This document shows, piece by piece, positions 29,962 through 42,025 of a DNA stretch of 64,000 nt. A model generated the notes under the pieces. That model was not told the DNA's origin. It saw only the letters and a list, made by a program, of their open reading frames with translations, and searched no databases. Source of the DNA: an uncultured Caryophanales bacterium (GTDB lineage Bacteria > Bacillota_I > Bacilli_A > RFN20 > CAG-288). How positions within the stretch are numbered: the first letter of the stretch is position 1; each line of letters begins with the position of its first letter. Location: NCBI GenBank assembly GCA_949287425.1, contig CASEGJ010000001.1:1-64000 (forward strand), in the 5' to 3' direction. The position numbers and the translations under genes are program-made.

Positions 29962-29988
29962 TTGACAAGAGACTGGGGGGGGTAGAAT
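29962..29988 (+). promoter_or_regulatory. Promoter with poly-G spacer (surface operon)
   Basis: TTGACA (29962-29967) and TAGAAT (29983-29988) are separated by only 15 bases, the last eight of which are an unbroken G tract (29975-29982). Two more G would give the optimal 17. Slippage in the tract would switch promoter strength, as known for Neisseria porA and opc. The first gene starts 42 bases downstream. Confidence 0.75.
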
Positions 29989-30030
29989 TTAAACGTAAAA
30001 ATGTAAATGCATTGTAAAAGGGAGGTTTGT

Positions 30031-30675
30031 ATGCATAAAAAATTCTTTACATTCGCTATACCTGTTGTAGGCGCTTTAGCTCTTGCTGGTTCTGGTTTTG
30101 CTGCTTGGACATTTACTAATGGAGCAAGTACTGATACTTTAACTGGTACTATTGGTGTTACTGATATTCTTGATGGATTTAAAGTTGAAGTTTTACAAAA
30201 AGATACTACTGATGCTTTAGAAGAATTCACTTTAACTTTAGATCAAGGTGGTCCTGATAACGATGATGTTACTGTAGGTGCTACTTCTAATCATACTGCT
30301 TATGATTTAAAGCTTTCATTTGAAACTGAAACTGGTAACGCTTTAGAATCAATTTTAGCTACTCATAAATTAAGTTTCACTTATACAGTTGCTGTTACTG
30401 ACTTTGATTCAACTGGTTCTTCAGAAACCTTTACTAATTATGTTGACTTAACTGATGATTCTAAAGGTAATTCAACAGCCACTGAACTTGATGATATTAG
30501 TGATTTTACAACTGATGGAACTAATCATTATTATTTAGTTGAAGATGTACCTTTAGAATGGAAATATATTAATAAGCCTGCAAATAAAAATGACTATGAT
30601 GCTATGAAAGCTGCTTTAAATGGTAAAAAATTCACCATTACTGTTACAGTTACTCCTACTTGGGTTGAAAAATAA
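30031..30675 (+). CDS. TasA/camelysin-like secreted protein
   Basis: 214 residues from ATG 30031, just after GGGAGG. The signal region MHKKFFTFAIPVVGALALAG leads into SGFAAWTFTNGAS, the pattern seen in SipW-dependent precursors such as TasA and CalY. The mature part is beta-rich and threonine/aspartate-rich, compatible with a fibre-forming TasA-like fold. It heads a cluster of three such precursors followed by a SipW-like signal peptidase. Likely role: extracellular matrix or biofilm fibre. Assignment rests on the signal motif and context. Confidence 0.75.
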   Translation: MHKKFFTFAIPVVGALALAGSGFAAWTFTNGASTDTLTGTIGVTDILDGFKVEVLQKDTTDALEEFTLTLDQGGPDNDDVTVGATSNHTAYDLKLSFETETGNALESILATHKLSFTYTVAVTDFDSTGSSETFTNYVDLTDDSKGNSTATELDDISDFTTDGTNHYYLVEDVPLEWKYINKPANKNDYDAMKAALNGKKFTITVTVTPTWVEK

Positions 30676-38914: not shown

Positions 38915-41900
38915 TTATTTAGCATCGCTGATAGCTGCATTAGCAAAAATGGATTTAATATTTACTCTAGTTTTAGCTGTGGTAGTTTCAATTAAGACAG
39001 CATATCTAGCTTTTTCACCATTTTCATTACTAGCAAGTATAGTTTTAGTTTTTGCAGTCGAATCAGTAGTAGCTGTTGAATCAACAATTGACCAAGTAGT
39101 TCCACCATCAGTTGATTTTAATATTTTAGGAGTAACTTTGCTTCCTTCACCATTATCAGTGTTGATTATTATGCCGAATTCTTTAGCTTTGACATCAAAC
39201 TGCATTTCTAGTGATAAGTAGTATTTGTTATCAATATGATTAGCATCAACGTCAGTGTCGACCCCAGCACCTTTCAAAACAGCAGCATGAACAATAGTAC
39301 TAGTAGTATATTTATCGCCACCATTAGCTCCTAATACAACACCACTATTCCAGGAACTTGTTGCTTCAGCTGAACAAGAGAAATAAATATTACCATGTTC
39401 AGTAATAGCAGTGCGCTGAGCATAGCCAGTACCCATGTTAGGGTTCCAAGTTAAATCAAGTAAGTTATAATTGAATTCGGTAGGAGTGGTATCAACACTA
39501 GATTCAACAAATGTAGCTTCAATAGTAATTACAGTACAGAAGTTGTTGTTTTTGTAAGTTAATTTGTTTTCTACAACTTGGCTAGTAACATTTGTACCAT
39601 TAATTAATAAGGAAGAAAGTTTATATCCATCATCAGGAGTAATAGTAAATTCAATATCATCACCATATTTAGTTTTGTTATCAGTTAAATTACTAGTAAC
39701 ACTACCATTACTCATTTCACCATATTGAACTACAACATCATAGCTTTGAGAATCGACAATGGTATCGACATAACCCATGAATTCAGAAGTGCCATTATAA
39801 TCGACAATAATACCAGTTAGAGTTACCATATCACCAGCGTTTAATTTATCATCAAGAGTAGTTCCAAAGTTTCTAGGATTGTCAAATTTATATTCACCTT
39901 CAGTTTGACCAGCTACTAAAGAGGTATAGTTAGCAGCATTTGTTAAACCATAAACTAGTAAAGTTTCACCTGTAGTTTTATCAGCAATATTACCATTACC
40001 ATAGTAATCATTTGTTGTTCCTGTCCAAATACCAGTAACAGTATAGATTTTGCTATAATTTTTATCTAAACCAGTTAGTTTATTCGCGTCAGGAATGCTA
40101 ATTTTTTCTCCGTTTAATCTAGGATCATTTTCATCATAAGCAGTTTCATCAACGTTAATATGTGATTCATAATCTCCTAGATAGATTCTATAACGTTGTT
40201 CAAATAATTTATTCCAGCTATCTTTATCGATATTAATTGTAGCTTTAGTTGAATTAGTAGTATCCCCATTAACATAGAGGAAGTATGGGACTACACTACT
40301 TGAAGTAGTAACTGGGGTGTCTTCTGTTTTATCAATTTCACCTTTAATAATTTCAACACCATCCATATTTAAGCTAGCATCGAAACCATAAGCAGTATTT
40401 TGATTATCACCAACAACTATAGCAGCATAGGCAACTTCATTTCCTGAAGTCCATTTATCGTTATAGTGGAAGCTAGTTCCAGTATATTCTTCAGTGTAAT
40501 ATAAATTGGAATTAGTTAAATTAACATTACCACTTCTAACGATTAAAGCTTGTCTATCGGCTTGGATATTGGTGTTAGTAATATTAACATCAGCAGCGAT
40601 ATTAATTAAAACACCAGTGTTATCTTTACTTGAATGAGTAGCTTTAATAGTGGAATTTTCAATATCGATTTTTACACTCTTGATATTGTCCCAGTTAGAA
40701 GCGTTAGTAGAAAATCCATAATAGCCACCAACGATAGTTGAATTAGTGATTTTTACTTGAGTAGCATCATCAAAAACAGCAACTGGGGTACCATTAGAAT
40801 CTAAATTAACTTTATCTAAAGTTAAGCTACCGCCTTTATTAACAGCAAAAGCAGTATTAGCTCCAGCTAAACCATTATAAGAAATATTACCATTAGAGAT
40901 ATTAACTACTTGATTTTTGTTAATTTCACTTGTAGAAGTATTAGATGAACTATTACCGATAGATAAGGTCTTTCCATTTAAATCGATAGTAGTATTAGGA
41001 TTTTTAGTATTGAAAGTTAATCCAGCATTAGTATCAACAGTAATATCGTTATTTAATTTGATAGCTTCGATACTTTCATGATCTAAGTAACTTAAATCAT
41101 CGCTAGAATCAATAACGATAGGATCTTCTAAACTACCACTACCACCGACAAATTGATGGGCACCTTCAACAAGGACTTTATCAGAAATTACATTTCCAAA
41201 TGGATCGACAATTGAAGAATATAATTTACCATCTTCATAATATTGGCTAGAAGCATTATCAAAGTTAGCTTTAACAACAAAACCATGTTCAACCATGTTA
41301 GTTGTATAAGTATAAGTACCATTTTCACTATTTCTAGTAATACCTTCACTAACTTCTTGACCATTTAGAGTTAGACTAGCTAGATAGTAGTTATGATCTG
41401 GATACATAGTAAAGGTAACTTCTTCACCGACAGTGGCACTTCCTAAATTAACACTGACATATCCATTTTCACTTGGAAGAATAGTATTTGACCAAGCGGT
41501 TAAACCATCTTCACCTTGATCACCTTTTTCTCCAGTGTCACCTTTATCACCTTTAGCACCATCAGTACCTTCAGCTTTGATAGTAGTTACTTTACCATCA
41601 ATAACCCAGTAACCATCATCGTTAATAGAAACTGTTGGGGTATGGCCATCATCCCCAGGAATACCTTGGATACCTTGTTCACCTTTTTGGCCATCTTGAC
41701 CATCTTTACCGTTAGTTACAGTAAAAGTAGAAGTGGTGTTATCAGTATATGTGATAGTGTAAGTATCGACATTTCCTGAAGTAGAGGTTTTTTCAATTTT
41801 AACAATACCTCTTCCATCTTCACCATCCTGACCATCTTTTCCATTAGTAACAGAAGGTAAAGAAGTTTGACTGACATTTGGAGTACAAGAGGTAACTCCT

Positions 41901-41947
41901 AATGACAAAACTCCTAAGACTGCTAATAGACATAACTTCTTTTTCAT
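38915..41947 (-). CDS. Collagen-like and beta-helix surface lipoprotein
   Basis: 1010 residues from ATG 41947; an ATG 21 bases upstream contains the AAAGGAG site itself. Lipobox LGVTSC puts the lipidated Cys at 21. G-x-y collagen-like stretches follow (GKDGQDGEDGRG, then GDDGHTP and GAKGDKGDTGEKGDQGEDG). Two copies of an InlB-repeat-like module are seen (GEEVTFTMYPDHNYYLASL and GDDIEFTITPDDGYKLSSL). Between them a parallel beta-helix (ITVDTNAGLTFNTKNPNTTI and similar turns) and an OB-like region occur. The C terminus is a beta domain. It is anchored outside the membrane and probably adhesive. A poly-C tract lies in its promoter. Confidence 0.8.
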   Translation of the reverse strand: MKKKLCLLAVLGVLSLGVTSCTPNVSQTSLPSVTNGKDGQDGEDGRGIVKIEKTSTSGNVDTYTITYTDNTTSTFTVTNGKDGQDGQKGEQGIQGIPGDDGHTPTVSINDDGYWVIDGKVTTIKAEGTDGAKGDKGDTGEKGDQGEDGLTAWSNTILPSENGYVSVNLGSATVGEEVTFTMYPDHNYYLASLTLNGQEVSEGITRNSENGTYTYTTNMVEHGFVVKANFDNASSQYYEDGKLYSSIVDPFGNVISDKVLVEGAHQFVGGSGSLEDPIVIDSSDDLSYLDHESIEAIKLNNDITVDTNAGLTFNTKNPNTTIDLNGKTLSIGNSSSNTSTSEINKNQVVNISNGNISYNGLAGANTAFAVNKGGSLTLDKVNLDSNGTPVAVFDDATQVKITNSTIVGGYYGFSTNASNWDNIKSVKIDIENSTIKATHSSKDNTGVLINIAADVNITNTNIQADRQALIVRSGNVNLTNSNLYYTEEYTGTSFHYNDKWTSGNEVAYAAIVVGDNQNTAYGFDASLNMDGVEIIKGEIDKTEDTPVTTSSSVVPYFLYVNGDTTNSTKATINIDKDSWNKLFEQRYRIYLGDYESHINVDETAYDENDPRLNGEKISIPDANKLTGLDKNYSKIYTVTGIWTGTTNDYYGNGNIADKTTGETLLVYGLTNAANYTSLVAGQTEGEYKFDNPRNFGTTLDDKLNAGDMVTLTGIIVDYNGTSEFMGYVDTIVDSQSYDVVVQYGEMSNGSVTSNLTDNKTKYGDDIEFTITPDDGYKLSSLLINGTNVTSQVVENKLTYKNNNFCTVITIEATFVESSVDTTPTEFNYNLLDLTWNPNMGTGYAQRTAITEHGNIYFSCSAEATSSWNSGVVLGANGGDKYTTSTIVHAAVLKGAGVDTDVDANHIDNKYYLSLEMQFDVKAKEFGIIINTDNGEGSKVTPKILKSTDGGTTWSIVDSTATTDSTAKTKTILASNENGEKARYAVLIETTTAKTRVNIKSIFANAAISDAK

Positions 41948-41999: not shown

Positions 42000-42025
42000 C
42001 TATTACAAAACTGGGGGGGGGTCAA
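42000..42025 (-). promoter_or_regulatory. Promoter region with poly-C tract (lipoprotein gene)
   Basis: On the minus strand TTGAC (42025-42021) runs directly into nine C (42021-42013) and is followed by AGTTTTG and the -10-like TGTAAT (42007-42002) or TAATAG (42005-42000). The spacer is 12 to 14 bases, too short for strong use, and would change by slippage of the tract. The plus-strand word ACTGGGGGGGG matches that at the surface operon promoter. Confidence 0.6.

Follow-up and report, generated by a model that had tools for sequence, protein, structure and literature searches.

A run of eight G lies between consensus-like -35 and -10 hexamers directly upstream of an operon for exported proteins in the window (the whole 64,000-nt stretch of DNA analysed here). 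It probably acts as a hypermutable spacer within the vegetative promoter of this surface-protein operon, being one of a genome set of tracts that would support multi-locus, poly-G promoter-spacer phase variation of surface proteins. In the proposed mechanism, replication slippage would add G residues to the tract or remove them, and each gain or loss would shift the distance between -35 and -10, which is now 15 nt. As a consequence of the changed spacing, single cells could switch expression of the operon reversibly. The switch set of the genome would comprise promoter-spacer tracts before lipoprotein and SipW-type genes and, within signal-peptide sequence, one frame-shifting tract or more, and the promoter-spacer design would be used across the order. 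That the tract slips in living populations, and that transcription changes as a result, is what we infer from the sequence; the evidence on which this reading is built is presented below.

The promoter and the operon it precedes

The preliminary description placed TTGACA and TAGAAT 15 bases apart, held by a spacer ending in eight G, and direct reading of the sequence bears this out (Table 1). A homopolymer of at least eight stands between recognisable -35 and -10 elements, 11 of whose 12 bases agree with the consensus, and the ATG at 30031 is found 42 nt downstream of TAGAAT. A promoter scan allowing only spacers of 16-18 nt misses this promoter. For a G8 placed randomly in the intergenic DNA of the window, a loose promoter pattern would be met at a frequency of 0.5% per strand. 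The usual spacing of sigma-A-type promoters is 17 nt. The assembled G8 state is probably a weak promoter because its 15-nt spacing falls two below that value, and a tract of ten G, for which the proposed 17-base spacing is arithmetically right, would probably make a strong one.

The operon had been labelled a TasA/SipW cluster, and the two halves of this label fared differently. The SipW part is represented by SipW-type signal peptides and by a putative SipW-like peptidase whose family matches lie below the curated cut-offs (61 bits versus 190 for NF046067, with the TIGR02228 match likewise below); relatives of this 506-aa protein are 44-46% identical to it. The TasA part found no support. When the protein encoded at 30031 was compared with TasA/camelysin family models, there was no Pfam match to E 0.1 and no NCBIfam match to E 1. 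Its structure model is a low-confidence beta-sandwich (pLDDT 67), with which Foldseek gave no match at E 0.001 or better. The best VIA match of the model was FimA (Z 5.0), which led the list together with other pilin-type beta-sandwiches (Z of 5 or less), TasA chains being absent among the matches listed. The TasA identity thus has no backing from family models or fold, leaving only the type of signal peptide and the low-confidence beta-sandwich.

The gene order of the operon recurs at locus L023, where the homologous operon is preceded by TTGACA-CGGC-G9. Tracts were also found before genes of the same type as the 30031 gene in two other genomes (G10 in G013 and G8 in G014). In the 110 nt upstream of that gene's closest homologue (G052, 47% identity) G runs of at least 5 are absent, which counts against the phase-variation reading.

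Table 1. Features of the G8 promoter, its operon and the other long tracts of the source genome (positions are those of the window unless a contig is given).
Feature	Position	Strand	Remarks
-35 hexamer TTGACA	29962..29967	+	read from sequence; 6/6 consensus
15-nt spacer AGAGACT+GGGGGGGG (AGAGACT-G8)	29968..29982	+	read from sequence
Poly-G tract G8, proposed slippage site	29975..29982	+	adjoins -10; one of eight genome tracts of at least 8
-10 hexamer TAGAAT	29983..29988	+	read from sequence; 5/6 consensus
Expected transcription start, ~7 nt past -10	29993..29997	+	inferred from spacing only
Shine-Dalgarno-like AGGGAGG	30019..30025	+	read from sequence
Exported protein, 214 aa, SipW-type signal peptide (GSGFAAW), predicted beta-sandwich	30031..30675	+	earlier label TasA; no Pfam/NCBIfam TasA match
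Second SipW-type exported protein, 228 aa	30705..31391	+	homologue at same place in L023
Large exported protein, 762 aa	31412..33700	+	similar large proteins at same place in L023, L024, L025 (by position and length, unaligned)
SipW-like signal peptidase, 506 aa	33711..35231	+	NF046067 E 1e-16; TIGR02228 E 6e-12
Lipoprotein with collagen-like G-x-y repeats, starts 41947	38915..41947	-	downstream of C9 tract
Second window tract, G9 (C9 for minus-strand gene)	42013..42021	-	possible spacer of TTGACC-17-TAGACT (42025-42020, 42002-41997)
Tract	C1:76684		clean TTGACA-17-TAGAAT before 455-aa lipoprotein
Tract, as C9	C3:105608		217 nt upstream of 678-aa collagen-like lipoprotein
Tract, G9	C4:280363		inside signal peptide of SipW-type protein
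Tract, G9	C4:316961		just before lipoprotein-like frame without normal start codon at expected place
Two tracts	C7:53598 and 53675		before ~263-aa frame, then 1698-aa lipoprotein

Long tracts of the source genome

The statement that such a G run is very unlikely by chance in this DNA holds for the genome as a whole. In its 1,341,638 bases (1.34 Mb), about 0.59 G/C runs of at least 8 and 0.09 of at least 9 would be expected on both strands, as computed from base and GG frequencies in the window, and 8 and 7, respectively, were observed (Poisson P ~2e-7 and 1e-11). The exact lengths are bimodal genome-wide, with nine G6 runs, all isolated, no G7, one G8, six G9 and one G11. At six of the seven loci carrying the long tracts, the tract is directly followed by, or enters, a gene for an exported protein; in the comparison set formed by the window ORFs, 5 of 33 encode exported proteins, two of these five being tract-borne themselves. 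The genome presents, in other words, several above-chance long tracts at surface genes, as expected of multi-locus contingency (a phasome). Among the other seven tracts, only the one at C1:76684 lies in a further clean TTGACA-TAGAAT promoter, and the hexamers flanking the second window tract are weak and fail the strict promoter pattern defined below.

Tracts within coding sequence bear on translational (frame-shift) phase variation, and here both frame states were encountered. The signal-peptide tract at C4:280363 is in frame in the source genome. G016 has a homologue, matching the source protein at E 4e-4, with G8 at the same place of the signal peptide; it runs out of frame after 48 codons, its mature frame remaining open for 207 codons. 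In G014 the tract of a gene of this type is G10, again out of frame; its protein resembles the source protein only weakly (E 0.009 in one BLASTP comparison) and is matched by type only. In-frame and out-of-frame 5' tracts are found in different species, not as alleles of one.

Since full-length MutS is kept in the source genome, slippage there would not be raised by MutS loss, and loss of mismatch repair as the cause of the tracts is ruled out for mutS1. As a separate observation, mutS1 was over the cut-off in none of 11 genomes examined from family f5 (weak mutS2-like matches or none), and promoter tracts are not obviously commoner in that family despite the missing mutS1 matches.

Three other features of these loci deserve mention. 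Behind the G9 at C4:316961 (L021 6962-7000, source genome G000), the lipoprotein-like frame has ATT where its start codon would naturally lie and stops immediately before it; the gene may be off or may use a rare start. Collagen-like G-x-y repeats follow a lipobox in three genes (window 38915-41947, L019 4356-6392 and L018 1064-3985), two of which lie behind a poly-G/C tract. Finally, a conserved leader element is shared by L022 6570-6690 (G000 C7) and L071 ~2470-2575 (G001 C5), in which TAATAATACCTTGCCTCTCTC is followed by a G tract (G11 in G000, G8 in G001), a terminator-like hairpin and a second G9 tract adjoining the ATG. For this second G9, pairing with a CCUC further upstream is conceivable (fold -21 kcal/mol, z -3.4). 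The sole Rfam match for the C7 element was a tRNA in L071.

Recurrence of the arrangement and behaviour of its spacer

A strict pattern made of TTGAC, a spacer with at least seven G and TANNNT (TTGACN{2,10}GGGGGGGN{0,4}TANNNT) was matched at 123 places, spread over 54 of the order's 279 genomes, and is missing from the remaining 225; two tracts were counted twice, so that these places correspond to 121 distinct tracts. The reversed control pattern was found at no place among the same 279 genomes. The 225 genomes without the pattern speak against the reading, as do the four other genomes of the genus, which gave no strict-pattern match and have at most one G8 each. In the family, G runs of at least 9 are present in 12 of 23 genomes. 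In the wider class, strict-pattern matches were found in 54 of 395 genomes (18 of 55 within the order and 36 of 340 outside), against 9 control matches in 8 genomes. Family f17 (G371, G389, G495, G513, G554, G611) displays TTGAC-x-G8/G9-TA in many copies per genome, the spacing often being only ~8-12 nt; these copies are probably a different repeated element.

Flanks were analysed at 116 distinct sites, after exclusion of five of the 121 tracts (G045:C22, G031:C3, G257, G264, G035). From the 105 of these with spacers of 14-20 nt, 96 target genes were obtained, nine sites being dropped for want of an acceptable gene start, with the starts picked by a simple rule. Among the control ORFs, 53 of 115 have a hydrophobic N-terminus, a feature shared by 71 of 96 targets (P = 3e-5); a lipobox was modestly enriched among the targets (22/96 versus 12/115, P = 0.012). 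SipW-type signal peptides were not enriched (10/96 versus 16/115), in a comparison biased by controls that come partly from SipW-rich loci. Three of the 96 targets are prepilin-like. Others resemble acyltransferase, polysaccharide-export and zinc-ribbon proteins, as an impression from sequence.

The earlier assignment of this promoter to the architecture of phase-variable promoters gained support from several sides: the bimodal tract set, the contrast with the reversed pattern and a spacing that is not fixed. At the 116 sites the tracts measure 7-15 nt, mostly 8-10, and the spacers 14-20 nt in 105 cases, where the commonest values are 15 and 18-19. Were the spacing fixed, the length of the tract would vary against that of the rest of the spacer with a slope of -1. 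The values obtained were a slope of 0.02 and r = 0.03, between genomes and not within one population, meaning that tract length alters the spacing without compensation. This is how a slipping tract should behave, and how a fixed operator should not. Ordinary TTGACA-N-TATAAT promoters in the analysed loci amounted to six sites and are uninformative on spacing preference.

The uncompensated spacing is also an argument against a first alternative, in which the tract would be a fixed operator or structural element (a regulator site, a special sigma or RNA-polymerase preference, a G-quadruplex or an R-loop) and not a length switch. What speaks for such an element is the strong orientation bias, since the poly-C version of the pattern was found in the order at only 8 places in 6 genomes (with 3 control matches), versus the 123 places in 54 genomes for poly-G on the coding strand. 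In addition, of the 116 sites 72 have the tract adjoining the -10 and 83 have a C before it, an arrangement in which Gs at -14/-15 may aid promoter contact, and in the source genome the G of all eight tracts lies on the contig's + strand, which is the G-richer one in those regions. Genes on + and - differ there in GC3 skew (means 0.03 and -0.39), a measure too noisy for single target genes in other genomes, and leading-strand bias as the whole cause of the G/C asymmetry is no more than a possibility. A fixed element would leave the out-of-frame coding tracts of two species unexplained, and we consider it unlikely.

The hypermutable-spacer reading could be extended to an order-wide class of switch promoters with one letter and one orientation, in which the coding-strand poly-G adjoining the -10 would be at the same time slipping element and part of the promoter contact. 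Each genome would then hold a modest repertoire of surface genes that switch independently of one another, in bacteria for which no pathogenic role is known. This extension is put forward tentatively, and we hold it to be rather doubtful. If true, the 123-to-8 preference for G would imply that slippage or promoter function depends on the G-carrying strand.

A second alternative, static promoter tuning, supposes that tract length sets promoter strength over evolution and hardly varies within a population. It bears on eight pairs of promoters with similar flanks, five of which keep the same tract length, as static tuning would have it, and the presence of MutS points in the same direction. The other three pairs, which include the two closest, differ by one base; the three comprise, among others, paralogues of a single genome (L139/L140, G9 versus G8) and the promoters that precede one SipW-type gene in G005 and in G012 (L062/L078, G9/G8, with spacings of 18 and 17 nt). 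These one-base differences, like the out-of-frame signal-peptide relatives, lend further support to phase variation. As a sign of slippage they are suggestive only, because flank indels are not rare across the eight pairs (21 gap columns in 801) and tract indels not clearly commoner. Bimodal lengths lacking G7 and out-of-frame coding tracts look rather like fast-switching loci, and static tuning appears somewhat less probable still than a fixed element. Mutational drift or assembly artefact, by which G runs would expand or be mis-called without any function, draws on assemblies of unknown read type, many of them fragmented, and on a few tracts at contig ends (G009:C2:81, G020:C111:23), but it would not put runs between TTGAC and TANNNT and not in the reversed pattern, nor account for an arrangement shared by five families whose flanks differ, and is very improbable.

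Relation to known systems

The tapA-sipW-tasA operon of Bacillus subtilis clusters the SipW peptidase with SipW-type exported proteins. The operon described here joins such proteins with a putative SipW-like peptidase, and differs in having the peptidase gene last and no TasA family match. To our knowledge, no poly-G promoter is known at the B. subtilis operon.

As regards the promoter itself, Neisseria porA and fetA have a homopolymer between -35 and -10 whose length alters the spacing and the transcription of surface proteins, the fetA tract being poly-C and the porA repeat being written (T)nC(G)n (PMC5320596). The likeness includes the location in the promoter spacer and, for porA, also the C before the Gs. 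The Neisseria systems belong to a different phylum and were proven by experiment, in contrast to the present one, which is known from sequence; moreover, a single letter in a single orientation prevails over the whole order here, with lipoproteins, SipW-type proteins and further exported proteins as targets.

By lineage, the closest known systems are vlp and vmm of Mycoplasma. In M. hyorhinis vlp (poly-A) and M. mycoides vmm (a dinucleotide), slippage of a repeat in the promoter region or spacer toggles transcription of surface lipoproteins (PMC10502178). The position of the repeat in the promoter region of surface lipoproteins is shared, with on/off switching predicted in our case. The differences lie in the repeat, poly-A or a dinucleotide in wall-less parasites versus poly-G in very AT-rich genomes here.

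Streptococcus pyogenes offers a case among Gram-positive members of the Bacilli. One-base indels in the intergenic homopolymer of Spy1336/R28-Spy1337 alter transcript levels (PMC7098570). This is a single locus, with a T tract between divergent genes. In Campylobacter and Helicobacter the tracts lie mostly within coding sequence, unlike those of the order studied here, which are mostly in promoter spacers. Their phasomes are reported to comprise many G/C tracts in AT-rich genomes, with surface structures among the targets (PMC8355987, PMC6321876, PMC2823697).

A search of the open-access literature gave no description of such phase variation in gut Bacilli. According to a 2025 review, multi-locus repeat-driven phase variation has been described mainly in pathogens, possibly through database bias, and wider surveys are awaited (PMC11868660). 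The present case adds a promoter design, found by one pattern search, that recurs across an order of uncultured Bacilli for which no pathogenic role is known. It yields a list of tracts whose lengths could be read from metagenome data that already exist, and a clear-cut way to ask why the tracts are poly-G and so seldom poly-C. The mechanism is already known from Neisseria porA/fetA and Mycoplasma vlp/vmm; as far as the literature searched shows, the novelty lies in the lineage, in the scale and in the orientation bias.
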